From an uncultured Ruminococcus sp. (lineage in GTDB: Bacteria > Bacillota > Clostridia > Oscillospirales > Acutalibacteraceae): a stretch of DNA of 64,000 nucleotides. Position numbers and translations under genes: made by a program. The notes beneath the pieces were generated by a model. That model had not been told where the DNA came from. It did no database searches and saw nothing but the letters and a program-made list of their open reading frames with translations. Numbering within the stretch: the first letter of the stretch is position 1; every line of letters starts with the position of its first letter. Location of the stretch: contig CADBZY010000012.1 of the NCBI GenBank assembly GCA_902799245.1, forward strand, positions 1 to 64,000, in the 5' to 3' direction. Positions 4,855-54,041 of this stretch are shown here, one piece after another.

Positions 4855-4952
4855 ACGCTTCACCTCTTGCCAACATTTTTCATATTTTTATATATAAAAT
4901 ATCATACACCATTTCTTCTCTGATTGCAATGAAAATTTTATTAATATTAAAC

Positions 4953-4986: not shown

Positions 4987-4998
4987 ATCATTCAATTT

Positions 4999-5811: not shown

Positions 5812-5865
5812 CTAAAAATACATCCCCTATTCAAAAAATGCCATAAACAATACAGGAAGCCCTTA

Positions 5866-5950
5866 CGCACCTGAAAAAATCCAAGCGCGCAGCGCTTCCT
5901 CCATTATTCACTATTCACCATTCACTATTCATTTAGCGAACGAACGTGAG
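5866..5950. repeat. Possible dispersed intergenic repeat, copy 1
   Basis: This gap carries GCGCGCAGCGCT, a run of ATTCACTATTCACC-like words, then GAACGTGAGCGCTCT. Related words (GAATGTGAGCGC, GCGCACAGCGCTCC, TTCATTATTC) recur in the gap at 45009-45080, in permuted order. It does not code and may be a degenerate small mobile repeat. Confidence 0.35.
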
Positions 5951-5954
5951 CGCT

Positions 5955-7789: not shown

Positions 7790-7843
7790 TATTTCAACCT
7801 CCGCAAATCATATTGGGTGCTATATTATTTATCGGGGAAAACA

Positions 7844-9172: not shown

Positions 9173-9188
9173 TTTTTATATCCTTTCT

Positions 9189-10499: not shown

Positions 10500-10523
10500 T
10501 CACTCCCTTCAGCGCATTTTGAA

Positions 10524-10584
10524 ATAAAAAAGCGGCTGTGTCATACAACAGACGGAAAAACCGACGTTGAACTCTCAGCCGCTT
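10524..10584 (-). terminator. Terminator after rpmF
   Basis: On the minus strand AAGCGGCTG pairs with CAGCCGCTT around an inner GTCGG/CCGTC hairpin, followed by a T-run. It ends the DUF177-rpmF transcript before the DUF512 gene. Confidence 0.8.
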
Positions 10585-10609
10585 CTTTCGATTGCAAAGT
10601 CAGAAGAAA

Positions 10610-10798
10610 TTATTTGTCTTCGCCCATTTTTATAACTTCACGACCCTTGTAATAGCCGCAGTTACTGCAAATGCGGTGAGGTCTCTTGTACTCGCCGCAG
10701 TTAGGACACTTCATAAGGGTAGGAGCGTCGAGCTTCCATACGCTGGAGCGTCTGCTGTTTCTTCTTGCCTTGGAAGTTTTTCTCTTTGGTACCGCCAT
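10610..10798 (-). CDS. rpmF: 50S ribosomal protein L32
   Basis: A 62-residue basic protein beginning [16 protein letters not shown], with a zinc ribbon of two CxxC pairs (CPNC and CSNC). Having all four Cys makes it the zinc-binding form rather than the zinc-free paralogue. It follows DUF177 by 32 nt, the standard gene order, and AGGAGG-like sequence precedes the ATG. Confidence 0.97.
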
Positions 10799-10830
10799 TC
10801 TTCAGCACCTCCTTGATTAGAATAAAGCCA

Positions 10831-11328
10831 TCAGTCTTGTAACAGCTGATCTAAAACCGCCATTCTCGGATCGACAGCTTCCTTTTTGCAGCCGCAGCTG
10901 CCCTCGTTGAGATTCTGCCCGCAAGTCGGACAAAGCCCGAGACAATCCTCGGAACAGAGGTGCTTGATAGGCATTTCAAGAAGTATGTCGTCTCTTACCA
11001 GACTGAAAAGATCGAGAGTGTATCCCGCAACGATTATAATGTCGTCATTGTCCTCGTTCTCGGCGGAAAGCGCAAGCGTATGCACAAACTCCTGCTTCAC
11101 CGATTTTTCGGCGATCGCAAGGCATCTGTCGCACGGCTTGGAATAGCTGAACTCTGCTGTATAGCAAAGCTCCACCAACCCGCCGGTATTTCTGACCTGT
11201 CCTTTTACCTGAACCGGCGAAACAGTCAATTGCTCGCCCTCGGCGGACAAATCGTCATACACAAAGCACTCGTCAACTGCGAGACTGCTGTCAGGAGTGA
11301 CAAATATATCATTTAATTCAAGCGGCAT
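10831..11328 (-). CDS. DUF177 (YceD) family protein
   Basis: A 165-residue protein of the YceD/DUF177 family, almost always located next to rpmF. The family has been linked to 23S rRNA stability or accumulation. The C-terminus has a Cys-rich cluster (CSEDCLGLCPTCG, then CGC) that probably binds zinc. I chose the ATG at 11328 over the GTG at 11343, because PLELNDIF is the usual family start; the ribosome site GAGGTG allows either. A consensus promoter lies just upstream. Confidence 0.9.
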   Translation of the reverse strand: MPLELNDIFVTPDSSLAVDECFVYDDLSAEGEQLTVSPVQVKGQVRNTGGLVELCYTAEFSYSKPCDRCLAIAEKSVKQEFVHTLALSAENEDNDDIIIVAGYTLDLFSLVRDDILLEMPIKHLCSEDCLGLCPTCGQNLNEGSCGCKKEAVDPRMAVLDQLLQD

Positions 11329-11372
11329 AATAAAACAATACACCTCGTATATAATTATACACTCGATAATAT

Positions 11373-11401
11373 ATTATAAAGAATCAAGTCGGCTTTGTCA
11401 A
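11373..11401 (-). promoter_or_regulatory. Consensus sigma-A promoter for DUF177-rpmF
   Basis: Minus strand TTGACA, 17-nt spacer, TATAAT: a perfect match. It lies between the P-loop gene stop and the DUF177 start, and predicts transcription starting near 11366. Confidence 0.9.
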
Positions 11402-11421
11402 TAGATTTTTTAAATTTATAA

Positions 11422-11838
11422 TTACTTAATTTCAGCCAGCTTGAAGATCTCCTCCGGGAAATCCGAAGAATCAGCGGAAACCGAGAAGGTGATGTTGACC
11501 TTTGCGGAATCGGTGAGCATCTTGATTCTGGCGAGGAAGCCGGTGAGCTGATTGAGATCGCTGCCGCCGATTTTGAGAGTAGAGTCAACCAGAATATCGG
11601 TAATATCGTAGTTGCCCGCGCAAAGACCGCTGATAAAGCCGTAGAAGCTGTCAAAACCCGAAATGCTGTAGCCCTCGATATTGACAAGTCTTGCGTTGTG
11701 GTCAACATCAAATGTGAGAGTGTCGCCCTTTTCGATGCAGACAACGTTGCCCTTGGATTTGACTACCGCCTCATGTGTAAGGTCGATGAGCTTCTTTGTC
11801 TTGCCGGAGCCTTTTTTGCCTGTGAGAAGTGTGATCAT
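11422..11838 (-). CDS. Small P-loop ATPase-like protein, function unknown
   Basis: A 138-residue protein beginning with a Walker A motif (TGKKGSGKTKK, residues 6-16) and with a Walker-B-like ITDILVDS strand near the middle. It is far shorter than PilT or RecA-type ATPases and lacks their other domains. It resembles a minimal single-domain P-loop NTPase, which I do not recognise as a named family. AGGAGG stands 9 nt before the ATG. It follows pgi by 37 nt on the same strand, so the two are likely co-transcribed. Confidence 0.7.
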   Translation of the reverse strand: MITLLTGKKGSGKTKKLIDLTHEAVVKSKGNVVCIEKGDTLTFDVDHNARLVNIEGYSISGFDSFYGFISGLCAGNYDITDILVDSTLKIGGSDLNQLTGFLARIKMLTDSAKVNITFSVSADSSDFPEEIFKLAEIK

Positions 11839-11875
11839 TGTAAATGACCTCCTGTAAAAAATATAGTGTTAATCA

Positions 11876-13216
11876 TTACTCGCCGAGTCTTGCCTCGAGA
11901 GCTGCCTTCTGTTCTTCATAGCCGGGCTTGCCGAGCAGAGCGAACATGTTCTTCTTGTATGCTTCCACGCCGGGCTGATTGAAAGGATTGACGCCGAGAG
12001 TGTAACCCGAAATGGCACATGCCTTCTCAAAGAAGTAAATCAGCCAGCCGAGTTCAAACTCGTTCGCCTCGGGAATGGAGAGGACAACATTCGGCACGCC
12101 GCCGTCGTTGTGAGCGAGGACAGTTCCCTGAAACGCCTTCTTATTGATGAAGTCCATTGTCTTGCCCGCGAGGAAGTTCAGACCGTCGCCGTTGTTTTCT
12201 TCTTCATTGAGAACCAGTTCGCTCTTTGCCTTCTCTATCTGCATGACGGTCTCAAAGAGGTTGCGCTGTCCCTCCTGGATATACTGACCGAGAGAATGAA
12301 GGTCGGTGGAGAAGATGACGGAATCGGGCAGAAGTCCTTTATTGTCCTTGCCCTCGCTCTCACCGTAGAGCTGCTTCCACCACTCGCTCATCATCTGGAA
12401 GTAAGGCTCGTAGCTCACTAAAAGCTCTGCGACATATCCCTTGCGGTAGAGGATATTTCTGACAGCCGCATACTTGTAGGCGGGATTCTGCTCAAGATCG
12501 GTGGAGCAAAGACTGTCCTGCGCAGCCTTGGCGCCTTCCATGAGCTTGTCAATATCGCATCCGGCCACAGCGATGGGAAGCAGACCCACAGCAGTCAGCA
12601 CAGAGAAACGACCGCCCACCTCGTCCGGCACGACAAATGTCTCGTAGCCTTCCTCAGTGGCGAGTTTTTTCAGCGTACCCTTTTCCTTGTCGGTGGTGCA
12701 GAAGATTCTCTCCCTTGCGCCTTCCTTGCCGTATTTCTCCTCCAGAATGCCGCGCAGCACACGGAACGCGATCGCCGGCTCGGTGGTGGTGCCGGATTTG
12801 GAGATCATATTGATGGAAACGTCCTTGTCCTTGCAAAGAGCGATTACCTCATTGAGCGAAGTCGAGCTGATGGAATTGCCCGTAAAGAAAATCTGAGGCG
12901 TATCCTTGCAGAGAAGGTTGTAATTGGGAGACTTCAGAAATTCGATGGCAGCTCTCGCGCCCAGGTAGGAACCACCGATGCCGATAACAATAAAGACGTC
13001 GCTGTTCTTTTTGATCTTGTCAGCGGCAGCCTTGATACGGGCAAATTCGTCCTTGTCATAATCGGTGGGAAGGGTCAGCCAGCCGAGCTTGTCGTTGCCA
13101 AGTCCGCTCCCGTCGTGAAGAGTATTATGTGAGGCGGCAATTTCAGGAGCAATCGCCTTCAATTCCTCCGCCGACACGAAGCCGGCGATATGTTTACAGT
13201 TTATTGATACAGCCAT
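11876..13216 (-). CDS. pgi: Glucose-6-phosphate isomerase
   Basis: Interconverts glucose-6-phosphate and fructose-6-phosphate. The 446-residue protein has [15 protein letters not shown] near the start, [10 protein letters not shown] for sugar phosphate binding, and the Bacillus-type short length. The ATG at 13216 has a perfect AGGAGG 9 nt upstream; the 14 codons before it are probably untranslated. With glgB and pfkA this puts three glycogen or glycolysis genes in 13 kb, though not in one operon. Confidence 0.96.
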
Positions 13217-16254: not shown

Positions 16255-16298
16255 GGCTTCGCTGTGGAATTCTTTTCCCGTGGCGAAGCCCGTTTTTT
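16255..16298 (+). terminator. Terminator after the kinase operon
   Basis: GGCTTCGC and GCGAAGCC form an 8-bp GC-rich stem followed by CG and six T. The T-run overlaps the stop codon of the convergent hydrolase gene. Confidence 0.85.
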
Positions 16299-17874
16299 AT
16301 TTCTGTTTATCAATCAGATCCGCGTAGCACTGCTGGGTAATCTTCTGGCAGACTGTGTAGAAGTGGTTGTCATCAAAGGTTCCCCATGCGCCGCTGGTCA
16401 TAACCACCACGCCGCTCTTCTGCTTTTCGTCGTAGCAGACGCTGGCGTAAACGCCGTAGGCGTTGCCACCGTGGTAATACATGTCGTGTCCGGGAACATA
16501 ATTGGTGCTTTTCTTGAAGCCGAGGCAATAGCGGAATTTGTCGTCTTTCATGTATTCCTTTTCGACTTCCTTCACTGCTTCTTTTGACAGAACCCGTATG
16601 TTTCCATACATGCCATCGTTGACAAATATCGTAATCAGCTTGGCGTAATCCTTCGGACTGATGAGCAGACTTCCCTGCGCCAGAATATAGGTATCTCCCG
16701 GCGCACGAATCAGTCTGTCCTTTACAAGAGTTCCGCGGGAACGGGCGATCTTGCCCACCTTGTAGCACTCGGCGACATTATTCTTGTCATTGAGGCTCTG
16801 ACCGCCGAATGCCGCATCCAGTCCTAAGCGGTCAAACAGCACAGAGTCGGTGAAGTAGATATAATGCAGGTTGGTAACCTTTTCATCGAGAGAGCCGACG
16901 ATACCGAAACCGGAATTGCTGTAGGCGAATTCCTGACCCGGCTTCTGGTTATTGTAGCTTTTGAGGTCTACCACCAGATCTTTCAGACGTGTGCCTGCGT
17001 TGCTGCCGGTGTAAATGATGTATTCATCGGCGAGAGAAGACGAATGGTTGAGCAGCATACGGGGCGTTATCTCCACTTCCGGAAACAGCGGATTGCGAAA
17101 ACGGAAACCGAAATAATCCTCCACGTTGCGGTCAAGATCGATTCTTCCCGCGTCCACAAGTGTCATGGTGGACAGCGTCGAAATGATTTTGGAGAGCGAC
17201 GCGGGACGGAATTTGGTATCGGCATTGATCTTCTTGCGCTGTGCCTTGTTGGCGTAACCGTAGCAATAGGTATAGGAAACTTTTCCGTCCTTGATGACGG
17301 CAGCGCCAACGCCCATGGCACTGTAATCCTGGCAGATCTTTTTGAGGGCCGTCGCGGTTTCGCCTTTAATTTCCACCGGATTGTGCGGGTCTTCTACCTT
17401 GGGTTCCTCCTGTCCTTCTTTTTCCACAAAATACTTGTCTATCCATCCGAAGCGGTTCTGTAGATATTCTATGCGGTAAAAATCGCCGCTTGTTTCCAAC
17501 ACTTCAAATTTCTGTCCCTTAGTGACAGTGTTCTGCACCTTCTTTTTGAAATTAGGCTCGGAGCAGATGGTTCCGTAGGTGAATTTTACAATGACATTGA
17601 ATCCGCTCTCCGGTTCCTCAGAAGAAACGTCAGCTTCATCAACCACGCTGTTTTTGCTTTTGAACAACGAGGATATTACCTCAATGTAATCAATCCGTGA
17701 GCGTTTGAACGCAATCACCATACTCACCGGAATAATCAGACACAACCCGACCGTGCCTATTCCCCGAATACGGTTGCGGCGGTAGAATTTCAGATACCTT
17801 TTCCAAAGGCTTGCGCCGTATGCGCCAAGCTCCGCCTTTACGCCCTTTCCTTTGTATTCTTTTTCGTTGCGCAT
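16297..17874 (-). CDS. Membrane-anchored SH3-domain serine hydrolase (beta-lactamase class C fold)
   Basis: A 525-residue protein: a basic cytoplasmic N-terminus, one membrane helix (about residues 40-62), an SH3b-like domain (about 90-150) and a class-C beta-lactamase/DD-peptidase fold (about 165-520). Catalytic signs are SLSK (SxxK nucleophile), YSN (YxN) and a late HGG replacing KTG. Such proteins cleave or sense peptidoglycan peptides, or act as esterases. The external SH3b suggests wall attachment. ATG 17874 has AAGGAAG upstream; an earlier ATG nine codons back lacks a site. It is a lone gene. Confidence 0.85.
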   Translation of the reverse strand: MRNEKEYKGKGVKAELGAYGASLWKRYLKFYRRNRIRGIGTVGLCLIIPVSMVIAFKRSRIDYIEVISSLFKSKNSVVDEADVSSEEPESGFNVIVKFTYGTICSEPNFKKKVQNTVTKGQKFEVLETSGDFYRIEYLQNRFGWIDKYFVEKEGQEEPKVEDPHNPVEIKGETATALKKICQDYSAMGVGAAVIKDGKVSYTYCYGYANKAQRKKINADTKFRPASLSKIISTLSTMTLVDAGRIDLDRNVEDYFGFRFRNPLFPEVEITPRMLLNHSSSLADEYIIYTGSNAGTRLKDLVVDLKSYNNQKPGQEFAYSNSGFGIVGSLDEKVTNLHYIYFTDSVLFDRLGLDAAFGGQSLNDKNNVAECYKVGKIARSRGTLVKDRLIRAPGDTYILAQGSLLISPKDYAKLITIFVNDGMYGNIRVLSKEAVKEVEKEYMKDDKFRYCLGFKKSTNYVPGHDMYYHGGNAYGVYASVCYDEKQKSGVVVMTSGAWGTFDDNHFYTVCQKITQQCYADLIDKQK

Positions 17875-17965
17875 TTTTCGTATTACTTCCTTCATTTGCA
17901 TGTTTATTCAATATTATAGCAAAGCCACATTCCGATAGCAACACGGAAATTATTAAGAATTTTAT

Positions 17966-22898: not shown

Positions 22899-24455
22899 TT
22901 ACACAACTTTGCAGAAGGTGCCAAGCACCCAACCTTTTTTGTCGGTTTTATACTGTATCTGGTACCATGTTCTGTCCTTTTCGTCCTTCTTGGTGGCAAG
23001 ATACACATACTTCTTCCCCTCAGAAGTACTTCCGATTTTTTTGGAGGACGTGCTCGCCGATTCACGGACGTTGACAGGGCTTTCAATGATTTCCACCTGC
23101 TTGGAAACAGCCTTTGTCGTCGCTGTAGTGGCTGTTGTCGTGGCCTTCGTTCCTGTCGTGACAAGCTCGCTGAGCGAAGCCATCACCCAGCCCTTTTGCT
23201 TGGAAGTGTACTGAATCTGATACCATTTGTTGCCCTTTGCGTCCTTCTTGGCGGCAAGATACTGAAAGGTCTTGCCCTTCGTGACCTTACCAAGGTACTT
23301 ACCGCTCTTGCTCGCCGAGGCACGGACAACAACCTTCGAGCCGGTGATGCGAACCTTCTTATCAGCCGCCTTGGTCGCGGGGGTCGTTGAAACTGTCGTC
23401 TCTGTGAGCTTGGCGTAATCCGAGTGAATCCAGCCCTTCTTGCCGGATTTGTACTCTATCTGATACCACGTTTTGCCGTCGGAATCCTTCTTGGAAGAAA
23501 TGTAAGCAAACTTCTTTCCGTTTTTGACGGTGGTAAGTATCTTGCCCTTTATGTCCGCCTTGTCACGGACGTGAAGGGCATTCGCTGTGATCTGAACCTG
23601 CTTTGCCGTAACTTTGGCCGTGGCAGTGGTTGTAGTTGTGGTTGTGGTCTTGGAGGTCGTAGAAGTATCCGTCGTGCCACCGTCATTTACGATCTTGCTC
23701 AGCGAAGCGAGTACCCAGCCGGATTTGCCTGATGTATAGCTGATCTTGTACCACAGCCTGCCCTTTTCGTCGGTATCGGACGCAAGGAATTCGTAGCGCT
23801 TCCCCTTGGAGACAGTGCCAAGCTTGCTGCCGTTCAGACTGGCCTTGGAACGCACGTTGACAGGAGAAGCCGTAATTTCAACCGTTTTGCCTTTGGTCTT
23901 GGTATCTGTTTTGGTATCTGTCTTGGTATCCGATTTGCCCTGCTCCTTCACCACTTCGCAGTAGGTGCCGAGAAGCCACGCCTGCATGTCGTCCCCGTAA
24001 TGCACGCGATACCAGAGTTGGTCGCTGCTGTCCTTTTTAACGGAGAAGTAGTCAAACTGGGCGCCTTTTTTCGCGATACCGAGAACCTCACTCGTCAGAC
24101 TCGCCTTTTCGCGGACGTTAAGCAGCTTGGTGGTGACTTCTACCTTGCCAATTTCCTTACTGTCCACCGTCTCCGCGTAAGCGGATGTTACCCATCCCTT
24201 TTTGTCATCCGACAGCTTGATCTGATACCAGCGGACACCCTTTTTGTCATTCTTCTCGCCGCAATAAACAAGCTGATCGCCGTAATGCACTTTCTGCATA
24301 TACCTTGCGGAGGTACCAGGTTCTTCCCTTACAGCAACCGGTTCACCCGTGATATTGACATATTTCGGCGCAGCAAACACATTAAACGCAGCCATACATG
24401 AAAAAGAGGCAGTCACCAGTACTGCGGAAATGATTTTTTTTATGTTCTTATTCAC
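22899..24455 (-). CDS. Secreted protein with six SH3b repeats
   Basis: A 518-residue exported protein: an N-terminal signal peptide cut after FNVFAA, then six bacterial SH3 (SH3b) domains of about 65 residues. Each has a VNVREKAS-like start and a WYQI..GWV end, and they are joined by Thr-rich linkers. No enzyme domain is seen. SH3b domains bind peptidoglycan, so this is probably a wall-associated binding or spacing protein. The GTG start at 24455 has AAAGGA 8 nt upstream; the ATG at 24464 is too close to that site. It is divergent from the phosphopolymer operon, sharing a 243-nt promoter region. Confidence 0.85.
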   Translation of the reverse strand: MNKNIKKIISAVLVTASFSCMAAFNVFAAPKYVNITGEPVAVREEPGTSARYMQKVHYGDQLVYCGEKNDKKGVRWYQIKLSDDKKGWVTSAYAETVDSKEIGKVEVTTKLLNVREKASLTSEVLGIAKKGAQFDYFSVKKDSSDQLWYRVHYGDDMQAWLLGTYCEVVKEQGKSDTKTDTKTDTKTKGKTVEITASPVNVRSKASLNGSKLGTVSKGKRYEFLASDTDEKGRLWYKISYTSGKSGWVLASLSKIVNDGGTTDTSTTSKTTTTTTTTATAKVTAKQVQITANALHVRDKADIKGKILTTVKNGKKFAYISSKKDSDGKTWYQIEYKSGKKGWIHSDYAKLTETTVSTTPATKAADKKVRITGSKVVVRASASKSGKYLGKVTKGKTFQYLAAKKDAKGNKWYQIQYTSKQKGWVMASLSELVTTGTKATTTATTATTKAVSKQVEIIESPVNVRESASTSSKKIGSTSEGKKYVYLATKKDEKDRTWYQIQYKTDKKGWVLGTFCKVV

Positions 24456-24506
24456 ACAAATCATCCTTTCAAACTTACAGAACAATAATAAACCATCATC
24501 AATTTA

Positions 24507-24590: not shown

Positions 24591-24620
24591 TTGACATATC
24601 TGACTGTTAAATGATATAAT
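24591..24620 (+). promoter_or_regulatory. Promoter of the envelope-phosphopolymer operon
   Basis: TTGACA, 18-nt spacer, TATAAT. It predicts a transcript starting near 24627 that covers the nucleotidyltransferase, both YidC-like fusions and the TagF-like gene. Confidence 0.85.
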
Positions 24621-24624
24621 GATA

Positions 24625-24680
24625 GTTGATTTTGTAAAAACAGTTCAATTGCCAAACGCCTGATGTTTGGCAAAATCAAC
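24625..24680 (+). promoter_or_regulatory. Structured 5' leader of the envelope operon
   Basis: GTTGATTTTG (24625-24634) is exactly complementary to CAAAATCAAC (24671-24680). An inner hairpin pairs TTGCCAAAC (24649-24657) with GTTTGGCAA (24665-24673), sharing three bases with the outer arm. The structure ends just before the ribosome site AGAAGGA. There is no T-run, so control of stability or initiation is likelier than termination. Confidence 0.6.
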
Positions 24681-24698
24681 CAGAAGGATGATGTTTTT

Positions 24699-26507
24699 AT
24701 GCAAGCGATAATATTAGCGGCGGGAATGGGAAAACGTCTGAAAGAATTGACAAAAAACAACACAAAATGCATGGTAAAGGTCAACGGAATATCCCTTATT
24801 GACCGTATGCTTCATCAGATAGAAGCGCTCCGTCTTTCCCGCATTATCATCGTTGTGGGATACGAGGGGCAGAAGCTGATAGATTACATATCCACCCTTT
24901 CTATCAGCACCCCGATAGAATTTATCGAAAATCCCATCTACGACAAGACCAACAACATCTACTCTCTCTCCCTGGCGAAGGAAAGACTGCGCAGTGATGA
25001 CACACTGCTCTTTGAATCCGACCTGATATTTGAGGATTCAGTGCTGCAAGAGCTTGTCTCCGACCCGAGGGACACGCTCGCGCTGGTGGACAAGTATGAG
25101 AGCTGGATGGACGGCACCTGCGTCAAGCTCGGTCAGGACGACCGAATCGAGGCATTTGTACCCGGCAAGCGTTTTGTGTTTGACGAAAAGGACGAATACT
25201 TCAAGACGGTCAATATCTATAAATTCAGCAAACACTTTTCCGAAACGCACTATGTTCCGTTTCTGGAGGCATACCAGTGCGCCCTTGGTCAGAATGAATA
25301 TTATGAGCAGGTGCTTCGCGTCATTGCGCTGCTCGACGACCCAGGCATTTCCGCAAAACGTCTGAACGGGCAGCTCTGGTACGAAATTGATGACATTCAG
25401 GATCTCGATATTGCGGAGTCCATGTTCTCCCCCGACGACGACGAAAAGATCGCATTGCTGCAGGGGAGATACGGCGGCTACTGGCGTTATCCGAAGCTGA
25501 TTGATTTCTGCTATCTGGTGAATCCCTACTTTCCTTCCGAACGCATGAAGAATGAAATAAAAGCCAATTTCGATACACTGCTGACGCAGTACCCCTCTGG
25601 AATGCACATCAACAGTCTGCTCGCGGCGAAGAATTTCAGCGTCCGCGAGGAAAACATCATCGTCGGCAATGGCGCGGCGGAGCTTATCAAAAGCCTCATG
25701 GGTACACTCAGCGGAAGGACGGGCTTTATCAGACCTACTTTTGAGGAATACCCCAATCGGTATTCTCCCGCTGAGCAAGTGATTTTCACCCCCGGCAATC
25801 AAGATTTTTCCTACACAGCCGATGATATAATGAAATACTTTGAAGGCAGGAATATCGATAATCTGGTAGTGATAAACCCCGACAATCCCAGCGGCAACTA
25901 CATCCCCAAGAAGGACATGCTCCGCCTGATCAAATGGTGCGGAGAGCAGGGAATCAAGGCTGTTATCGATGAATCCTTCGTCGATTTTGCCGACAAAGAA
26001 GACAGCACCATCATAGATCAGGAGATTCTGAACGCAAATCCCAGCCTCTACGTGATGAAGAGCATATCAAAATCCTACGGCGTGCCCGGACTCAGACTGG
26101 GTGTGCTTGCTTCCGGCGATGTCAGGACAATTGCCGCCATGAAAAAGGACGTTGCCATCTGGAACATCAATTCCTTTGCGGAGTTTTACATGCAGATTTC
26201 AGAGAAATACAAAAAAGATTACGCTGAAGCTCTCATAAAACTCAGAGCCGAACGAGCGAGATTTGAGAGCGAGCTTGCAAAGATACCGGGTCTGCGTGTG
26301 ATCCCGTCGCAAGCAAATTTCGTGATGGTGGAAACATCTGACAGCATTTCGCCCAAGGGACTGCTGAAAACACTGATGATCAATCACGGTCTGCTCATTA
26401 AAGATCTCGTGGCCAAGACAGGCGGTGGAAATTACCTGCGCATCGCAGTGAGAGATACGAAGGACAATGACGCACTTCTGAGCGCCCTCAGAGCCGAGCT
26501 TCTCTGA
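24699..26507 (+). CDS. Nucleotidyltransferase-aminotransferase fusion (LicC/PntC-like)
   Basis: A 602-residue two-domain cytoplasmic protein. Residues 1-235 form a sugar-nucleotidyltransferase fold of the LicC choline-phosphate cytidylyltransferase type, with ILAAGMGKRLKELT and LFESDLIFED as metal site. Residues 270-600 are a class I/II, HisC-like PLP aminotransferase with NPDNPSGNY, VIDESFVDF and the PLP Lys near 458 in SISKSYG. This order matches the published PntC-type fusions that make CDP-aminoethylphosphonate. No PEP mutase or phosphonopyruvate decarboxylase gene is nearby, so another amino-alcohol phosphate is possible. ATG 24699 follows AGAAGGA at 10 nt. It is the first gene of the operon. 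Confidence 0.85.
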   Translation: MQAIILAAGMGKRLKELTKNNTKCMVKVNGISLIDRMLHQIEALRLSRIIIVVGYEGQKLIDYISTLSISTPIEFIENPIYDKTNNIYSLSLAKERLRSDDTLLFESDLIFEDSVLQELVSDPRDTLALVDKYESWMDGTCVKLGQDDRIEAFVPGKRFVFDEKDEYFKTVNIYKFSKHFSETHYVPFLEAYQCALGQNEYYEQVLRVIALLDDPGISAKRLNGQLWYEIDDIQDLDIAESMFSPDDDEKIALLQGRYGGYWRYPKLIDFCYLVNPYFPSERMKNEIKANFDTLLTQYPSGMHINSLLAAKNFSVREENIIVGNGAAELIKSLMGTLSGRTGFIRPTFEEYPNRYSPAEQVIFTPGNQDFSYTADDIMKYFEGRNIDNLVVINPDNPSGNYIPKKDMLRLIKWCGEQGIKAVIDESFVDFADKEDSTIIDQEILNANPSLYVMKSISKSYGVPGLRLGVLASGDVRTIAAMKKDVAIWNINSFAEFYMQISEKYKKDYAEALIKLRAERARFESELAKIPGLRVIPSQANFVMVETSDSISPKGLLKTLMINHGLLIKDLVAKTGGGNYLRIAVRDTKDNDALLSALRAELL

Positions 26508-26559: not shown

Positions 26560-29388
26560 ATGACCTTTCTTTCTTTTGTGTACAATCTAATAATCGGCCC
26601 GATCGTATTGATTTTTGAAACGATATTTGCCACCTTTTACACTTCCACTTATCGCGTCGGCGCATCCATCGTCGCTCTCAGCGTTGCGGTAAACCTGCTG
26701 GTACTCCCCCTTTACCGAAGAGCAGACGCGATGCAGGAGGAAGAGCGGTGCAGACTTGAGAAATTAAAGCCCGGTGTTGACCACATAAAAAAGGTGTTCA
26801 AAGGCGACGAGCGCTTTATGATGCTACAGACCTATTACAGACAGAATAATTATAAACCCTATTATTCGCTGAAAGGCTCCCTTTCACTGCTGCTTGAAAT
26901 ACCGTTTTTTATCGCCGCTTACAACTTTCTGTCAAATCTGTATCTCCTAAACGGCACACCCTTTAAATTCATTCCGGATCTCGGGCAACCGGACGGTTTG
27001 CTGCATTTCTTCGGGTATCACGTAAATCTTATGCCGATACTCATGACGGTGATCAATATTGTTTCCGGAGTAATCTACACCAAAGGAGCGCCGCTGAAAA
27101 GCAAGCTGCAGCTTTATGGAATGGCGCTGATATTCCTTGTGCTGCTCTACGACTCGCCGTCCGGACTGGTTGTCTACTGGACACTCAACAATCTTTTTTC
27201 ACTCGGCAAAAACATTTACTATAAGCTGAAGAAACCAATGCTGACACTCGGAATCGTATGCTTTGCGATTGGCTGTATTCTAATGCCCTATGTGATTATC
27301 AAGCCTATGTTAACAATGAAAAAGCAGTTGTTTGTTATCATCTGTCTGACACCGCTCTTCCTGATCCTTCCGGGGTACCTGCTGAAAAACAAGTACGGAA
27401 AAAGAATCCGAAAGGAATCCGCGACCGTTATTTCCGACAGATCGAACAATGTCTTGTTCATCACTTGCGGTGTTTTTCTTACCGTTCTTACTGGTGTGCT
27501 GATACCGTCAGCCATCATTAACGCCTCTCCGGGTGAATTTGTCAACAGACTGTATTTTCAAAATCCTCTGAATTACGTTGCCACCGCCTTTTCCATTGCT
27601 GCCGGAACCTTTATGATATGGATGAACATTTTCTATTTTCTCTCGTCGCAAAAAGTGAGAAGGGTGTTCGGCCTTGTTGCCTCCGTACTTTCCGTATGGG
27701 CAGCGGTAGATTATTTGTTTTTCGGAAAGAATTACGGCAATATGTCCTCCCGGCTGCAATATGACAACATCATCAATTCCGCCTCGATTGACTATCTGCT
27801 CAACACAGCTGTACTGACGGCATTGACTGCCATCGTGTATGTATTATGGAAGAAAACCCCCGTGTTTCTTCGCTCCGTCACATTTGCCATGTCAGCCGCC
27901 GTTCTGATCATGTCATGCATGAATGTGTTGTCTATCAACAAACAAATCAAGAAAATCCGTACATCCCTGGACACATTATCCAATACCGAGGGCGTCGAAA
28001 TACCGCTTGACCAAAGCGGCAAAAATGTCATTGTGATCATGATGGACAGAGCAATCTGTGAGTTTTTTCCGTATATAATAGAAGAAAAGCCGGAGCTGAA
28101 AGAGCAGCTGGCGGGTTTCACCTATTATCCAAACACCATTTCATTCGGAAGCACCACTCTGTTAGCTGCTCCTGGTCTGTTCGGCGGATATGAATACACA
28201 CCCGAAAGCATGAATCAAAAAGACAATATATCACTGAAACAAAAGCACACAGAAGCGCTTAAGCTGATGCCTGTTGTTTTTTCGGAAAACGGCTACGAAG
28301 TGACGGTTTGTGACCCGCCGTTTGCTGGATTCAGCGTGTTTTCCGATCTGAATATTTATAACGATTATCCGCAGATTAACAGGTATATAACCAAAAATCT
28401 GTTTTCCGACGGAACTGACCTCCAGATGACCCAAGAACTGCTCAACCGCAATTTCTTTGCCTACAGCATCATGCGCATATCGCCGGTTCTGCTCCATTTA
28501 GGTTTATACAATAACGGTTTGTACTATCATCTGTCCCGATCGTCGGAGCAGGTTTGTGACGGATTGTATACCGCGCAAGGAGGAACAACATCCAAAACTT
28601 CAACATTCATCGGTTCCTATAATGTTCTGAAAAAGCTTCCCGAACTGACAAATGTAACCGACACCGGAAAAAACACCTTCTGTATGCTGACCAACGACAG
28701 CACTCACGACACAATCATGCTGCAGGAGCCCGCCTACGAGCCTTCGGAAAAGGTGGACAATACAGCCTACGAGTCGGAACACGGAACACGTCTTTCGGCT
28801 GACAGCAAAGAAATGAACCTCACCACGAGAAAGCAGATTAAGCATTATCAGTGCAATGTGGCTTCCATGCTCCGACTGGGTGAATGGATGGATTATCTCC
28901 GGGAAAACGGTCTTTACGACAACACCCGGATCATAATCGTTTCCGATCACGGAAAGGACCTGGATTTTCTGTTCGGAGATAAAATTACAGACGGCGATGA
29001 CAAAATCCCTTCCGACGACAACAGAATCAATTTCTCTGATATTATGGCATATAAGCCGCTTCTTCTGGTTAAGGATTTCGGCAGTGACAACACCGAACCG
29101 GTTACAGATCATACCTTTATGACCAACGCCGACACACCGACTCTCGTATTCAAAGGACTTATTGACAACCCTGTCAACCCCTTTACCGGCAACAAGATCT
29201 GCTCCGATGAAAAGAATAACAAAAAGGAATTCCATATCGCCGGTACAAACACCTGGAATCCCACCGATTACAGCGACAGCGAAACGACCCTGAAGGATCT
29301 CATATGGGTCGAATTTACCGGGAATGATACAGCGGACCTCAGTTCTTGGCGTGGTATCGGAACCAGTCTCGACCAATTGTCCCATTGA
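26560..29388 (+). CDS. YidC-like membrane domain fused to sulfatase-fold phosphotransferase, copy 1
   Basis: A 942-residue membrane protein. Residues 1-225 resemble the core of YidC/Oxa1 insertases: a membrane helix, the LVLPLYRRADAMQ turn, a charged cytoplasmic hairpin (LEKLKPGVDHIKKVF), LLEIPFFIAAYNFL and a DSPSGLVVYWTLNNLFSL end. About seven more helices follow (225-460), then an external alkaline-phosphatase/sulfatase-fold domain (about 485-930). Its metal and nucleophile motifs are IMMDR (Asp496), GSTTLLAAPG (Thr532/533), STHD (His716) and SDHG (Asp796, His797), the pattern of LtaS and phosphoethanolamine transferases. It starts 53 nt after the fusion enzyme gene. A transferase role on an exported polymer is inferred. 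Confidence 0.85.
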   Translation: MTFLSFVYNLIIGPIVLIFETIFATFYTSTYRVGASIVALSVAVNLLVLPLYRRADAMQEEERCRLEKLKPGVDHIKKVFKGDERFMMLQTYYRQNNYKPYYSLKGSLSLLLEIPFFIAAYNFLSNLYLLNGTPFKFIPDLGQPDGLLHFFGYHVNLMPILMTVINIVSGVIYTKGAPLKSKLQLYGMALIFLVLLYDSPSGLVVYWTLNNLFSLGKNIYYKLKKPMLTLGIVCFAIGCILMPYVIIKPMLTMKKQLFVIICLTPLFLILPGYLLKNKYGKRIRKESATVISDRSNNVLFITCGVFLTVLTGVLIPSAIINASPGEFVNRLYFQNPLNYVATAFSIAAGTFMIWMNIFYFLSSQKVRRVFGLVASVLSVWAAVDYLFFGKNYGNMSSRLQYDNIINSASIDYLLNTAVLTALTAIVYVLWKKTPVFLRSVTFAMSAAVLIMSCMNVLSINKQIKKIRTSLDTLSNTEGVEIPLDQSGKNVIVIMMDRAICEFFPYIIEEKPELKEQLAGFTYYPNTISFGSTTLLAAPGLFGGYEYTPESMNQKDNISLKQKHTEALKLMPVVFSENGYEVTVCDPPFAGFSVFSDLNIYNDYPQINRYITKNLFSDGTDLQMTQELLNRNFFAYSIMRISPVLLHLGLYNNGLYYHLSRSSEQVCDGLYTAQGGTTSKTSTFIGSYNVLKKLPELTNVTDTGKNTFCMLTNDSTHDTIMLQEPAYEPSEKVDNTAYESEHGTRLSADSKEMNLTTRKQIKHYQCNVASMLRLGEWMDYLRENGLYDNTRIIIVSDHGKDLDFLFGDKITDGDDKIPSDDNRINFSDIMAYKPLLLVKDFGSDNTEPVTDHTFMTNADTPTLVFKGLIDNPVNPFTGNKICSDEKNNKKEFHIAGTNTWNPTDYSDSETTLKDLIWVEFTGNDTADLSSWRGIGTSLDQLSH

Positions 29389-29437
29389 ATAGCAGCAGCA
29401 GACCATATAGAAAATAATATTCACAGGAGTGTAACAA

Positions 29438-30721
29438 ATGTTTCAGATTCATTTTGCCTATATCGATCCCGGTACGGGAAGTATGCTTTTCACCATTCTT
29501 ATCGGTGTACTGAGTGCGGCGGCGTATTTTCTGCGTAATTCCTTCATGAAGCTGCGTTTTATTTTCAGTCTGGGCAAGAAGGAAAAAGTCGAAAACGATG
29601 ACAGCGTTCCGTTTGCTATCTTCACCGACAGCAAACGCTACTGGAACATCTTCAAGCCGATCTGCGACGAATTCGAAAAACGCGGACAACAGGCAGTCTA
29701 TCTCACGGCGTCGCCTGACGATCCGGCGCTTGACGAGCATTACGAGCATGTTTCGACCCAATTCATCGGCGAGGGAAACAGGGCATTTGCGCGCATGAAT
29801 ATGCTGAAGGCGGATGTGGTGCTGTCCAGCACACCCGGCGTAGACGTTTACCAATGGAAGCGCTCACGCAACGTAAAGTGGTATGCGCACATTCTTCATG
29901 CCGCCAATGACGTAACCGCCTACAGAATGTTTGGCATCGATTATTATGACGCGATCATGACCTCGGGAGATTTTCAGGCGAAGCAGGTGCGTCAGTTGGA
30001 AGAACTGCGCCATTTGCCCGAAAAGGAGCTTCCCATGATAGGACTCCCCCATATGGATGAGCTGAGAAAGAGGCTGTTAAGCTCAAAAGAAGCCTCCGCG
30101 ACGGCGGAAGAGGATTCGCATCCCATAACCGTGCTGCTTGCTCCTTCATGGGGACCGAGCAGCATCCTGAATAGATACGGCTCCAAAATGATTGATGCTC
30201 TCCTAAAAACAGGCTATCATATCATCATTCGTCCTCATCCCCAGTCCTACACTTCCGAAAAAGAAATGCTCGATGAACTGATGAGTAAATACCCATCCGA
30301 CGACAGAATAGAATGGGACAAAAGCAACGACAATTTTGAAGTACTTCGTCGTTCAGACATACTCATCTCGGATTACTCCGGCGTCATCTTTGACTTTTCG
30401 CTGGTATTTGACAAGCCAATTATTTATGCCGACACCACCTTTGACAAAGGCCCCTACGACGCATGGTGGCTCAACGATGAAATGTGGACCTTCGATATTC
30501 TCCCCAAGATCGGCAGACAACTGACTGCGGAAAACTTCGGGGATGTCGGAGAGCTGATTGACAGCTGTCTGCATTCTTCTGAGCTGGCGGAAGGCAGAGA
30601 ACTGGCACGTTCCCAGTCATGGGCCAACATCGGCAATTCCGTCCCGCTTGCTGTGGACTACCTTATCCATAAAAGGCAGGAACTGCAATGCGCAAGTGAT
30701 TCAGCAGAAGCAAAAGCGTAA
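29438..30721 (+). CDS. TagB/TagF-like glycerophosphotransferase with N-terminal membrane segment
   Basis: A 427-residue protein. The N-terminus AYIDPGTGSMLFTILIG is a membrane segment of a type usually seen as a separate small protein; here it is fused. The rest matches CDP-glycerol glycerophosphotransferases: GVDVYQWKR and HILHAANDV in the first half, then IIIRPHPQSYTS and LISDYSGVIFDF, the conserved acceptor/CDP motifs. These enzymes add glycerol- or ribitol-phosphate units to lipid-linked teichoic acid at the inner membrane face. AGGAG lies 8 nt before the ATG. It is placed between two paralogous phosphotransferase genes, 49 nt after the first and 12 nt before the second. Confidence 0.87.
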   Translation: MFQIHFAYIDPGTGSMLFTILIGVLSAAAYFLRNSFMKLRFIFSLGKKEKVENDDSVPFAIFTDSKRYWNIFKPICDEFEKRGQQAVYLTASPDDPALDEHYEHVSTQFIGEGNRAFARMNMLKADVVLSSTPGVDVYQWKRSRNVKWYAHILHAANDVTAYRMFGIDYYDAIMTSGDFQAKQVRQLEELRHLPEKELPMIGLPHMDELRKRLLSSKEASATAEEDSHPITVLLAPSWGPSSILNRYGSKMIDALLKTGYHIIIRPHPQSYTSEKEMLDELMSKYPSDDRIEWDKSNDNFEVLRRSDILISDYSGVIFDFSLVFDKPIIYADTTFDKGPYDAWWLNDEMWTFDILPKIGRQLTAENFGDVGELIDSCLHSSELAEGRELARSQSWANIGNSVPLAVDYLIHKRQELQCASDSAEAKA

Positions 30722-30733
30722 CGGTGAAAAAAT

Positions 30734-33508
30734 ATGAGCTTTTTTACAATCTTATACAATTTGATTCTCGGTCCCCTTGTATTGCTTTTTGACGCGGTGT
30801 ACGCGATGATGTACCGCATGACCGATAATGAAGGACTTTCAATAATTGCCCTCAGCCTTGCGATCAATTTTCTGATACTTCCTCTTTACCGACGTGCCGA
30901 CGCAATGCAGGAAGAGGAACGGATACGGCTTGAACGGCTCAAGCCGGGTGTTGACCATATCAAGAAGGTGTTTAAGAGCGACGAACGCTTTATGATGTTG
31001 CAGACCTACTACCGCCAGAATCACTATAAGCCCTATTACGCACTGAGCGGTTCGGTATCTCTGCTGCTTGAAATTCCGTTTTTCATCGCGGCATTCCGCT
31101 TTCTCTCGGAGCTTGATTTGTTAATCGGTGCTTCGTTCGGTCCGATTGCCGACCTCAGTCAGCCCGACCGGCTGCTGCCTGTTGCCGGACATCACATAAA
31201 TCTCCTTCCGATACTTATGACACTGATCAACATAGTATCGGGCGTGATTTACACCCGCGGTATGCCGCTGAAAAGCAAGATTCAGCTTTACGGCATGGCT
31301 CTGATCTTCCTCGTCCTGCTCTATTCCTCCCCCTCCGGACTGGTGTTTTACTGGACTCTCAACAATCTTTTTTCTCTGGTAAAGAACATCTTCTACAGAA
31401 TAAAGGATCCAAAATTGGTGCTTAGCGTTATGTGCGCTGTTTTCGCTGTCATACTGCTGCCATTTATTCTCCTGGCCAATCCTATTGCTTCACCGAGAAT
31501 AAGCCGGTTTGCGGTGGCAGGAACTGCGCTTCTGCTTCTTCCTCTGCCTGCCATCCTGATTCTCAGAAGGTTCAAAATATCCTTTAACACAGCCGAAGCA
31601 TCCAGAGCCGATAACTATGTATTTTACGTTTGCTGTGCGCTGATGACCATTCTCACCGGTCTGCTGATTCCCTCCGCCGTCATCGCGGCGTCACCGGAAG
31701 AATTTTTTGATCCCGCGCAGATGCGCTCCCCCATCGGCTATTTGCTGAGCGCCTTTGTCACTGCTATCGGCACATTCATTGTTTGGATGGGAATTTTTTA
31801 CAACCTGGCCTCCTCTAGGGTGAAGAGAATCCTCAGCCTGTCCTCCGTGATTTTCGCAGGTACATCCATCATCAATTACATGTTCTTCGGAAACAAATAC
31901 GGGAATATGTCGTCCATGCTGCAGTACGATGATTTATTTTCAAATAAGACATCGGAATACCTCACCAATTTTGCGGTGCTGCTTCCGGCAGCAGCCCTGC
32001 TTTATCTGATATGGAAAATGCGGCAGGCTGCCATCAGGATTATCAGCACAGCGGTCTGCGCCGCTCTCCTGATAATGTCCTGCATGAATATCTTTTCCAT
32101 TCAATCGGTGTACAGCCATTTTGACAATTCCACTGTTAACAAATCCACCTCGGGAATACAATGGACAATGGACAAAAAAGGCAAGAACGTCGTTGTCATT
32201 ATGATGGACAGAGCGATCAGTGGCTTCGTCCCGTATATGATCGAGGAAAAACCGATACTGAAAAAGCAATTGGCAGGCTTTACCTATTATCCCAACACCA
32301 TTTCTTACGGCAATACGACAATGGTTGGCGCGCCGGGAATTTACGGCGGCTATGAATACACTCCCGAAGAAATGAACCGACGGGATAACCAGTCCATTAT
32401 GAAAAAACAGGACGAGGCACTCAAACTGATGCCGGTGCTCTTTTCAGGCGCCGGATACGAAACCACCGTCTGTGACCCACCCTACGCGGGAATGCAGTGG
32501 TACCCGGATCTCAGTATCTACAACGAATACCCTGCAATCAACACTTATATTACCAAAGGCGTCTTTGCCATCGGATGCGATGATGACACCGCAGACGAAA
32601 TTCTGAACCGGAACTTTTTCGCTTACAGCCTGTTCCGCATTTCGCCTGTGCTTCTTCACCAATCGCTTTATAACCGCGGAGAATACAATCGCGCTTCAAG
32701 ATCCTTCGCAGTGCAGGTTGTCAGTGACATGTACACGGCCTCCGGAGGCACAGACAGGAAAAACACCCAATTTGCCCAAGCCTACAGCGTTCTGCAAAAG
32801 CTCCCTGATCTCACGAAGGTCAGCGATGAAGGGAAAAACACATTTCTCATCATCGACAACGATACCACTCACGACGTAATGATGCTGCAGGAGCCTGCGT
32901 ATGCTCCGTCTGACTTTGTGGATAACCGTGCTTATGAAGAAGAATGCGGCCCACGCAAAGCGGCGGACGGCAGCGAGCTGGAGTTTTCATCCATTTCGCA
33001 GTTAATGCATTACCAGTGCAATATGGCAGCGATGCTCAGACTCGGCGAGTGGATGGATTACCTCCGTGAAAACAACATGTATGACAACACAAGAATCATC
33101 ATCGTATCTGATCATGGAAGATCTCTGAATAGTCTGATGGATCTCCGATTTGATAACGGGAGCGAAGAATCCGAATCAGGAGCAGACAACACATTGCTGT
33201 ACAGATCGCTCCTTCTGGTCAAGGATTTCGGAAGCAGCACACTCTCTCAGGACCCGACTTTCATGACAAACGCCGACACGCCTCTCCTGGCGCTGGATGG
33301 CATCATCGATGAACCGGTCAATCCCTTCACCGGAAATAAGCTCTCCTCAGCCATAAAGGAGGCACCTGAGCACCGGATCGCTTACTGTGAAAACGACGCC
33401 ACAGAATTATACAGAGGCGGCAGAAATGACTATATTGTCAAGGAATGGGTCACCATGAAAGGGAACGATACTTTCGATCTCAGTGCGTGGCGAATAGTGG
33501 ACGATTAA
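30734..33508 (+). CDS. YidC-like membrane domain fused to sulfatase-fold phosphotransferase, copy 2
   Basis: A 924-residue paralogue of the protein at 26560-29388, similar from end to end. The YidC-like part (residues 1-225) keeps LILPLYRRADAMQ, KPGVDHIKKVF, LLEIPFFIAAFRFL and SSPSGLVFYWTLNNLFSL. The external domain keeps IMMDR (Asp492), GNTTMVGAPG (Thr528/529), TTHD and SDHG (Asp793, His794). All metal and nucleophile positions are retained in both copies, so neither looks like a pseudogene. They may handle different donors or acceptors. The gene begins 12 nt after the TagF-like gene and ends the operon at a bidirectional hairpin. Confidence 0.85.
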   Translation: MSFFTILYNLILGPLVLLFDAVYAMMYRMTDNEGLSIIALSLAINFLILPLYRRADAMQEEERIRLERLKPGVDHIKKVFKSDERFMMLQTYYRQNHYKPYYALSGSVSLLLEIPFFIAAFRFLSELDLLIGASFGPIADLSQPDRLLPVAGHHINLLPILMTLINIVSGVIYTRGMPLKSKIQLYGMALIFLVLLYSSPSGLVFYWTLNNLFSLVKNIFYRIKDPKLVLSVMCAVFAVILLPFILLANPIASPRISRFAVAGTALLLLPLPAILILRRFKISFNTAEASRADNYVFYVCCALMTILTGLLIPSAVIAASPEEFFDPAQMRSPIGYLLSAFVTAIGTFIVWMGIFYNLASSRVKRILSLSSVIFAGTSIINYMFFGNKYGNMSSMLQYDDLFSNKTSEYLTNFAVLLPAAALLYLIWKMRQAAIRIISTAVCAALLIMSCMNIFSIQSVYSHFDNSTVNKSTSGIQWTMDKKGKNVVVIMMDRAISGFVPYMIEEKPILKKQLAGFTYYPNTISYGNTTMVGAPGIYGGYEYTPEEMNRRDNQSIMKKQDEALKLMPVLFSGAGYETTVCDPPYAGMQWYPDLSIYNEYPAINTYITKGVFAIGCDDDTADEILNRNFFAYSLFRISPVLLHQSLYNRGEYNRASRSFAVQVVSDMYTASGGTDRKNTQFAQAYSVLQKLPDLTKVSDEGKNTFLIIDNDTTHDVMMLQEPAYAPSDFVDNRAYEEECGPRKAADGSELEFSSISQLMHYQCNMAAMLRLGEWMDYLRENNMYDNTRIIIVSDHGRSLNSLMDLRFDNGSEESESGADNTLLYRSLLLVKDFGSSTLSQDPTFMTNADTPLLALDGIIDEPVNPFTGNKLSSAIKEAPEHRIAYCENDATELYRGGRNDYIVKEWVTMKGNDTFDLSAWRIVDD

Positions 33509-33560: not shown

Positions 33561-33605
33561 AAAAAGGTGTACGGTATCCATTTGGGTACGGTACACCTTT
33601 TATTA
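33561..33605. terminator. Bidirectional terminator between the envelope operon and the transpeptidase gene
   Basis: AAAGGTGTAC (33563-33572) pairs with GTACACCTTT (33591-33600), with further inner pairs. A-rich and T-rich flanks on the two sides allow termination from both strands. Confidence 0.8.
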
Positions 33606-33622: not shown

Positions 33623-35281
33623 TCAAGGGTTTTCCGGTTGAGACTCACTCGTGGTGGAGGCAGTCTCTTGCGAGTAGACTTCTTGTGATGTATCGTCTTG
33701 TGAGGAGGCGTCCTGCGAGGAAATATCCTGCGAAGAAACATCCAACGACGCAACCTCCTGCGAGGAAACATCTACAGAGGATACGTCAACTGGCAGAGTT
33801 GAAGATATGTCATCCGATTCGGTCGAAGAATCCTCCTGTGAGGAAATATCCTCAGATTCCTCGGAGAGAACCGTCACCGTGAATGATGCGGTGTATCCTC
33901 CGTCTATCGAACAAGCTGTTATGACGGCACTTCCCGCTTTCAGAGCAGATAACGTACAGTTTTCGCCGTCGCCTCTGACCGAAACCACACCGGGATTGGT
34001 GCAAGACCATGTGCAATCCTTATTGCTTGCTGTTGAAGGAGTGAAGTCAGCGGTAACTCTGATCGAATCACCCACATTCATTGTCTTACTGTCGAATCCG
34101 AATGATATTCCGGCGGCAGGAACAAGATTCGTAGCTGGATCAACATACTGCGTCCAGTACGAAGGCAAATTTGCACTTCTGCCAAGAGGTGAACCGTTTA
34201 CAATCTTTACATTAGTGCCGACCCAGCAGAACTGGTAAATGAAATAGGCCGCCTGCACTGTGGTTCTCATACATCCGGAAGAAGCGTTCGTGCCGATCTG
34301 GAATACACTGTTGATCGACAGAGTGCCGAAATTCTTCTGTCCGTAAATCGGCCCGTGGAAAAAGAGATTGCCGTAATACTTACAGCAATAGGGCGAATAG
34401 GACTTGCCCCAAAAGTGCCATTTTTCCTTGCCAAGAATGGTGAAATCACCGACGGGAGTGAGCGAAGCGGTGCGCCCGGTGGCCGTCAGAAAGGTCTTGC
34501 GCGGAACGGTATATTTACCGTTTGCATCTTTACCAAATATCGTGATCGTATGCGAACCTTTCTCCACATAAATGAAGTACGGGGAAGCATTGACCGGGAA
34601 ATCCTCAGGGTTAACCGTCGTGCTCGTTATTTTAGAAGAAGGCTTTTCTGTTCCTATCACTCTGCCTGTAGCGTCATCGACAAATTCCGCTTCCGCGTCG
34701 GGATTGCCAAGGTCAATATTGCCGGTATTGACCTTTTCTTTCAAAACATAGCCTTCCACGTTTTTTTCCGCGTCGCTTACCTTGTAATAATCCCCCTCCG
34801 CGGAATAAATCAGTACATCCGTTCCGCCGGCGAGTCTTCCCTCGACCGCCGAGCCTTCCTCCGGACGTGTGAGAATATCGCAGTCCTCAAACAGCATACC
34901 GGTACCAAGTACATTTTCAGAAATCAGATCTATTCCCGGGCGGTCGCTGTCCGTGACAAACACCGTCTCCTCAAGATCGTAATTACCGTCAAATTCTTCA
35001 TCCTGTCCATTCCGGAATAGGCCCAGAATCAACGCTGCCGCTCCTGCTATCAACAGCACACCTATCAATGAAATAGCAAGGGCTATTTTTTTGATCTTAT
35101 TAACCTCTGAGTCGATCTGTTCTTTATGAAGATCGTCTGAATTTGTATCATTGACAGAAACGTTCTCAGAATAAACAGAAGTCTTCTCCGACTGATTCTT
35201 CGATTGCCTGTATACATTCTTGTCCATTTCAATCGAATGTGTCGAGTCAAGCTCATTCATCTCAAAAAATTCTTTTTTCAA
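33623..35281 (-). CDS. Membrane-anchored L,D-transpeptidase with SH3-like and Ig-like domains
   Basis: A 552-residue protein: a cytoplasmic polar N-terminus (1-70), a membrane helix (IALAISLIGVLLIAGAAALI), an SH3-like domain (about 125-185), a YkuD L,D-transpeptidase domain (about 225-375) with FFHGPIYG and SSGCMR (nucleophile Cys337), a BIG2-like Ig domain (about 395-470) and a Ser/Gln/Asp-rich tail (SSQDISSQ type). It forms 3-3 cross-links or attaches proteins to peptidoglycan. The TTG start has GGGAG 9 nt upstream. It is convergent with the phosphopolymer operon, consistent with an envelope island. Confidence 0.88.
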   Translation of the reverse strand: MKKEFFEMNELDSTHSIEMDKNVYRQSKNQSEKTSVYSENVSVNDTNSDDLHKEQIDSEVNKIKKIALAISLIGVLLIAGAAALILGLFRNGQDEEFDGNYDLEETVFVTDSDRPGIDLISENVLGTGMLFEDCDILTRPEEGSAVEGRLAGGTDVLIYSAEGDYYKVSDAEKNVEGYVLKEKVNTGNIDLGNPDAEAEFVDDATGRVIGTEKPSSKITSTTVNPEDFPVNASPYFIYVEKGSHTITIFGKDANGKYTVPRKTFLTATGRTASLTPVGDFTILGKEKWHFWGKSYSPYCCKYYGNLFFHGPIYGQKNFGTLSINSVFQIGTNASSGCMRTTVQAAYFIYQFCWVGTNVKIVNGSPLGRSANLPSYWTQYVDPATNLVPAAGISFGFDSKTMNVGDSIRVTADFTPSTASNKDCTWSCTNPGVVSVRGDGENCTLSALKAGSAVITACSIDGGYTASFTVTVLSEESEDISSQEDSSTESDDISSTLPVDVSSVDVSSQEVASLDVSSQDISSQDASSQDDTSQEVYSQETASTTSESQPENP

Positions 35282-53939: not shown

Positions 53940-54041
53940 TGCTAATACCTCCACATAGTATTTTTATTATATTATACGCTTTCCGATGAAAAAAGTAAAG
54001 GCTTTTATAAAAATTTATGCAAAATCACGGCTAATTTATTA

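Follow-up and report, generated by a model that had tools for sequence, protein, structure and literature searches.

How does a YidC fold come to be joined to an extracytoplasmic phosphotransferase, twice in one gene cluster, and what could such a protein do? The question arose from a 64,000-nucleotide stretch of DNA from an uncultured Ruminococcus sp. (the window), in which two neighbouring genes encode such fusions. In our reading, to which we give a probability of about one half, the products of the operon form a membrane machine that places small charged phospho-groups on a cell surface polymer, using CDP or CMP donors. Judging from the genes involved, the groups moved would be phosphoethanolamine-like or an aminoalkylphosphonate in the source organism, and phosphocholine or phosphonate in its relatives.

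Table 1. The apparent transcription unit under study, in positions of the window.
Feature	Position	Strand	Basis
Promoter, sigma-70-type, TTGACA-18-TATAAT, TG before the -10	24591..24620	+	perfect consensus match, 12/12; consensus only, by itself no evidence of function
LicC-CobD fusion: LicC-like cytidylyltransferase, about aa 13-260, then CobD/HisC-like PLP enzyme, about aa 275-610	24663..26507	+	profile searches
YS1, YidC-phosphotransferase fusion 1, 942 aa	26560..29388	+	ORF, Pfam, AlphaFold2 model, fold search
TagF-like transferase, 427 aa, N-terminal membrane helix with invariant YIDPGTGS-LF	29438..30721	+	PF04464, motif alignment
YS2, YidC-phosphotransferase fusion 2, 924 aa	30734..33508	+	ORF, Pfam
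Strong hairpin with a T-rich stretch behind it, end of unit after YS2	33562..33601		-25.6 kcal/mol, z -7.5

A YidC core precedes an outside domain of the alkaline phosphatase superfamily

Both open reading frames described by the initial annotation, of 942 and 924 residues, were present (Table 1). YS1 consists of a YidC core (aa 1-225), two linker helices (226-283), five further helices (293-471), and a domain of the alkaline phosphatase (AlkP) superfamily (485-942). The Pfam family 60KD_IMP matched aa 34-221 of YS1 and YS2 above its cut-off (E 1.8e-24 and 2.9e-24, respectively), and Sulfatase matched aa 488-801 of YS1 and 484-806 of YS2, in both cases above cut-off (E 1.1e-8).

A full-length model of YS1 was built with AlphaFold2 from 59 homologues (mean pLDDT 88). 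Because the outside domain fills the fold-library matches of the whole model, the YidC part (aa 1-250) was modelled by AlphaFold2 (pLDDT 83) and searched alone. Its best matches were solved YidC structures, headed by 3wo7 from B. halodurans (Z 18.5, rmsd 2.9 over 209 residues), and it matched E. coli YidC (6al2) with Z 18.1. The YidC core fold that had been proposed for residues 1-225 was thus borne out. The model of residues 485-942 matched members of the AlkP superfamily with Z 18-21, namely phosphonate monoester hydrolase (4uph, Z 21.4), choline sulfatase (6fny, Z 20.8), YejM/PbgA, MCR-1, EptA, and LtaS (2w5q, Z 18.4). The alignment of YejM/PbgA to the YS1 model begins at residue 286, indicating that helices 293-471 correspond to the membrane part that enzymes of this kind usually have, and that residues 226-283 link this part to the YidC core.

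Five residues of the outside domain (D496, T533, H716, D796, and H797 in YS1) were invariant in all 59 homologues. The initial annotation had listed an Asp, a pair of Thr, a His, and an Asp-His as key residues; T532 was unconserved among the same homologues, indicating a single Thr nucleophile and no pair, and the other residues stood. Fold match and conserved residues together predict an active site with an LtaS/EptA-type Thr nucleophile and Asp and Asp-His metal ligands, in agreement with the phosphotransferase-like external domain proposed earlier. The presence of 4uph and 6fny among the top fold matches would also suit a hydrolase that removes or trims a phospho-group during remodelling, rather than a transferase. 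We consider this improbable, given that the nucleophile is an unmodified Thr in 59/59 homologues, as in the EptA/LtaS transferases, that the five-helix part aligns with YejM/PbgA, and that a hydrolase would not need the tight partnership with TagF described below.

The YidC groove has lost its arginine

N45 of YS1 aligns with R366 of E. coli YidC. This position lies in the centre of the hydrophilic groove, where insertases have a positively charged residue; it is Asn in every one of the 59 homologues, whereas the ordinary YidC of the source genome has Arg there. The groove Arg has been described as strictly conserved in insertases, but in some backgrounds E. coli YidC inserts proteins without it (PMC8920935), so its replacement by Asn is no proof of lost insertase function. 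W207, also in the groove, was invariant among the 59 homologues. Within the fusion, conservation is highest in the YidC domain, with a mean of 72% among the source genome's four paralogues, versus 58% for the catalytic part. With the groove Arg lost, the YidC domain of the fusion may serve to carry lipids and not to insert proteins.

Alternatively, the domain could have kept its insertase job, serving the fusion's own helices or those of TagF, with no lipid carrying. The intact core fold, the 60KD_IMP match, the invariant W207, and the dispensability of the Arg in some backgrounds are all consistent with such a role, which we nevertheless find doubtful: the genome already has an ordinary YidC, the Arg is replaced by Asn throughout the family, and the domain is conserved beyond what a mere insertion aid would need. 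An insertase role would touch only the membrane-crossing step of the mechanism proposed below, and is compatible with the rest of it.

The fusion genes appear to share a transcription unit with donor and transferase genes

The LicC-CobD, YS1, TagF, and YS2 genes lie on one strand, separated by gaps of 52, 49, and 12 bp, and appear to form one transcription unit. The promoter match sits about 43 bp upstream of the first gene. The hairpin at the end of the unit is also positioned to terminate a convergent gene (33623-35281, -), which encodes an L,D-transpeptidase (YkuD) with a Big_2 domain.

In the initial annotation, the first gene of the unit had been taken for a CDP-sugar-type nucleotidyltransferase. 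A nucleotidyltransferase was indeed found, but the sugar type was dropped, since its profile matches are LicC-like and CobD/HisC-like: a threonine-phosphate-decarboxylase-like protein (6oux, E 9e-48), LicC (1jyk, E 3.6e-12), and a PntC-type enzyme (6pd1, E 3.6e-12). The protein also matched TIGR01140 with E 1.8e-51, below the cut-off of that model. From these matches, LicC-CobD probably makes a CDP-aminoalcohol or a CMP-aminoalkylphosphonate, and its domain composition suggests a CDP-ethanolamine-like product in the source organism. We infer that CDP-ethanolamine could arise via CobD-type phosphoserine decarboxylation; our literature search found no paper on such a fusion. LicC-CobD is also present in three related genomes without a YidC-phosphotransferase fusion (G017, G024, and G058).

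The transferase noted earlier between YS1 and YS2 proved real, as its protein matched PF04464 with E 1.1e-13 (51.4 bits; cut-off 22.1). The RPHP and SD(Y/F)SG motifs are kept in the family alignment. Against the NCBI equivalog models for TarF, TarL, and TarB, the same protein scored 17.4, 16, and 11.5 bits, respectively (cut-offs 550, 1000, and 500). The normal donor of TagF-like enzymes is CDP-glycerol, a point against the head-group reading given below.

Directly upstream of the operon lies a gene for a secreted-looking protein with six SH3_3 repeats (22899-24485, -), and a similar protein is encoded in a relative (G013, at L028:1456-3009, -). By analogy with the choline-binding repeats of pneumococcus, this protein could bind the wall polymer. 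Elsewhere in the window, a serine-hydrolase (beta-lactamase family) domain is joined to an SH3_3 domain (16297-17901, -). A TIR-domain protein (53136-53954, -) is encoded near a 772-aa open reading frame (50673-52991) that had no Pfam match; both are close to a lower-GC stretch at 48-50 kb.

The fusion recurs in Clostridia, always with its TagF in the related genomes compared

The source genome has four YidC-phosphotransferase fusions (two in the window, a third on contig C8, and a fourth on C9), together with a single ordinary YidC and a single TagF of the fusion-partner kind. Among the roughly 85,000 species genomes that were scanned, relatives were encoded at 307 loci, mostly in rumen or gut Clostridia, and the combination thus occurs beyond the source genome. 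The 77 loci kept come from Lachnospiraceae, among them cultured Butyrivibrio and Mediterraneibacter agrestimuris, from Oscillospiraceae/Ruminococcus, from other Clostridia, and from Eggerthellaceae MAGs. Chance or misassembly was ruled out by the four fusions in one genome and by the 307 loci, which include cultured isolates. Among 60 related genomes, the source genome included, the fusion was found in 10, and its specific TagF in the same 10 and no others (Fisher p 1e-11, without correction for kinship). In a sample of the class, the fusion was found in 9 of 291 genomes. The largest array seen, in G013:C19 (L028:5098-17659), has one TagF followed by four tandem fusions.

A search of the open-access full-text literature gave no description of a YidC-phosphotransferase fusion, in keeping with the initial annotation, which knew of none. 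The fusion constitutes a genuine and widespread enzyme family, apparently undescribed so far.

Domains are exchanged in distant relatives

At four more distant loci (L162, L163, L164, and L193), the YidC domain has TagF rather than a sulfatase as its fusion partner; at L162, L163, and L164, the gene next to YidC-TagF encodes a free-standing transmembrane sulfatase. Profile comparison showed that these halves are homologous to those of the window (TagF, E 6e-39; transmembrane sulfatase, E 8e-19). The YIDP helix is carried by TagF in the window and by the sulfatase in L163. Domains that are fused in varying combinations usually work together. TagF, YidC, and the AlkP enzyme, being fused in different combinations, are therefore best read as one machine.

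In a first tree, YidC seemed to have been fused to TagF and to the sulfatase independently, which we do not claim. When one long row was removed from the tree, the fusion-type YidC domains were possibly one clade, with weak support (57/46).

Neighbouring genes point to choline-, ethanolamine-, and phosphonate-type head groups

Gene neighbourhoods were counted at the 49 loci having at least 3.5 kb on both sides. TagF was found on the same strand and within 400 bp of the fusion at 41 of them. A donor gene (LicA, LicB, LicC, LicC-CobD, a BCCT choline-type transporter, or PEP mutase) lay within 6.5 kb at 27 loci, and none lay within that distance at the other 22. LicD was present at only 2 of the 49. 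In the class sample, LicA occurred in 5/9 genomes with the fusion versus 14/282 others, counts that are uncorrected for kinship.

Phosphonate genes were found at several loci. PEP mutase (398 bits; cut-off 320) and phosphonopyruvate decarboxylase (457 bits; cut-off 313) are encoded at L197, with two fusions and two TagF genes on their flanks. In L200 (G709:C27:36001-50475), a complete 2-aminoethylphosphonate (AEP) operon, comprising PEP mutase, phosphonopyruvate decarboxylase, and AEP transaminase, is followed by separate TagF-like and sulfatase genes with no YidC (3693-12723), indicating that YidC is not strictly needed. From their position, the TagF-like protein and sulfatase of L200 are candidate transfer enzymes for a phosphonate-decorated surface. 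The gene after this sulfatase resembles it at its start. In the phosphonate operons of L193 (5443-11646) and L197 (5851-9975), an iron-containing alcohol dehydrogenase replaces the AEP transaminase, suggesting that the product is hydroxyethylphosphonate rather than AEP. Together, the neighbours LicA/LicB/LicC, BCCT, LicC-CobD, and PEP mutase/phosphonopyruvate decarboxylase suggest that head groups of the phosphocholine, phosphoethanolamine, or aminoethylphosphonate type are attached.

In the source genome, no match to LicA was found at E 1e-20. Two PS decarboxylase homologues are encoded in this genome, and PE is probably made in this organism, as judged from these genes. PEP mutase and phosphonopyruvate decarboxylase, present in L197 and L200, are absent from the window. 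A cytidylyltransferase-PEP mutase fusion is encoded on another contig (G000:C1:183539-184855; L202:9539-10855, +), with 53% to the Butyrivibrio one, and stands alone, without an adjoining phosphonopyruvate decarboxylase. A phosphonate donor is therefore possible in the source organism, unsupported by gene order. As a counter-point to decoration by the fusions, two LicD-family genes, on contigs other than that of the window, and two other sulfatases elsewhere in the genome could do this work.

The same genes could be arranged into another pathway, in which TagF and the fusion build a polyol- or glycerol-phosphate backbone of teichoic-acid type, TagF extending it from CDP-glycerol inside the cell and the fusion acting like LtaS outside, and the donor genes serve later decoration by LicD. 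The PF04464 domain, the LtaS-like fold, and the LicD genes of the source genome and of the two fusion loci would fit such a pathway. We judge it unlikely, as the TagF-like protein had no TarF/TarL equivalog match (17 bits versus a cut-off of 550), the genes that recur beside the system are of the choline, ethanolamine, and phosphonate type, and TagF stands directly behind phosphonate synthesis in L200 and L197. The initial annotation had proposed an uncharacterised, teichoic-acid-like polymer system; an uncharacterised surface-polymer system remains, and a teichoic-acid-like polymer made from a CDP-sugar is disfavoured by the donor-gene neighbours.

A proposed route for phospho-groups to the cell surface

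In the machine that we favour, LicC-CobD would make the CDP- or CMP-activated group in the cytoplasm, as homology and gene order suggest. The membrane-tethered TagF-like enzyme would pass the phospho-group of the nucleotide on to an acceptor in the membrane, a step modelled on the TagF family and on L200. The YidC-fold domain might be the part by which the charged lipid or head group crosses the membrane; this step is speculative and the least certain of the four. On the outside, the LtaS/EptA-type domain would take the phospho-group, probably through a Thr-phosphate intermediate as fold and invariant residues predict, and place it on the surface polymer. Several fusion paralogues per single TagF would then mean one donor route with different acceptors.

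A lipid-carrying role of the YidC domain is suggested by the fusion itself, by the changed groove, by the high conservation, and by the scrambling of phospholipids by YidC/Oxa1 proteins in vitro (PMC10491306). A further reading, somewhat less likely than not, is that the YidC fold has been turned from an insertase into a scramblase-like, lipid-carrying subunit of a TagF-YidC-AlkP machine, which would offer gut bacteria a second route, independent of LicD, to the display of phosphocholine, phosphoethanolamine, or phosphonate. Since YidC is here fused to a lipid-type phosphotransferase, is the best-conserved part, and lacks the insertase residue described as strictly conserved, the fusion offers a natural test of whether the YidC fold acts on lipids.

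Bacterial display of phosphocholine and related groups bears on host mimicry and on immune recognition, and is usually traced via LicD or PptA/EptA. With its hundreds of loci, the TagF-YidC-AlkP trio could serve as a marker for the display of phosphocholine, phosphoethanolamine, or phosphonate where surveys based on LicD overlook it.

Comparison with known systems

Like YidC/Oxa1/Alb3 proteins, the fusion has the five-helix core fold and a 60KD_IMP match above cut-off. Unlike them, it is joined to a phosphotransferase, has Asn in place of the groove Arg/Lys, and falls just under the cut-off of TIGR03592 (84.1 for YS1 and 82.6 for YS2, versus 84.3). With LtaS/EptA/MCR enzymes it shares the outside fold (Z 18-19), the predicted Thr nucleophile with Asp and Asp-His ligands, and, in the model, a bundle of five membrane helices immediately ahead of the outside domain. 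It differs from these enzymes in having a YidC core and a pair of linker helices before this shared part, and in its near-constant TagF partner.

The nearest known donor pathways are Lic-1 and Pnt (PMC10434233, PMC6697681). As in Lic-1 (LicA choline kinase, LicB, LicC cytidylyltransferase, and LicD transferase), the LicA, LicB, and LicC genes stand beside the fusion in many relatives. By contrast, LicD is rare at fusion loci, where TagF and the fusion stand in its place, and the source genome has no LicA match, has LicC only as the CobD fusion, and has LicD on other contigs. As in Pnt tailoring (Ppm, Ppd, PntC, and AEPT), a fusion (L197), a YidC-TagF (L193), or a TagF (L200) is found beside Ppm and Ppd. 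LicD-like phosphotransferases or glycosyltransferases have been noted in Pnt clusters (PMC6697681), whereas the TagF/sulfatase pair fills that slot in the fusion-related loci.

The TagF-like protein of the window resembles TagF/TarF/TarL in its PF04464 domain and motifs, but is short and single-domain, has the conserved YIDPGTGS helix, and scores far below the TarF and TarL equivalog cut-offs. Because of the changed groove charge and these low equivalog scores, we set the fusion system outside the insertase and TarF/TarL families, and treat it as a distinct form of phospho-group transfer at the cell surface.
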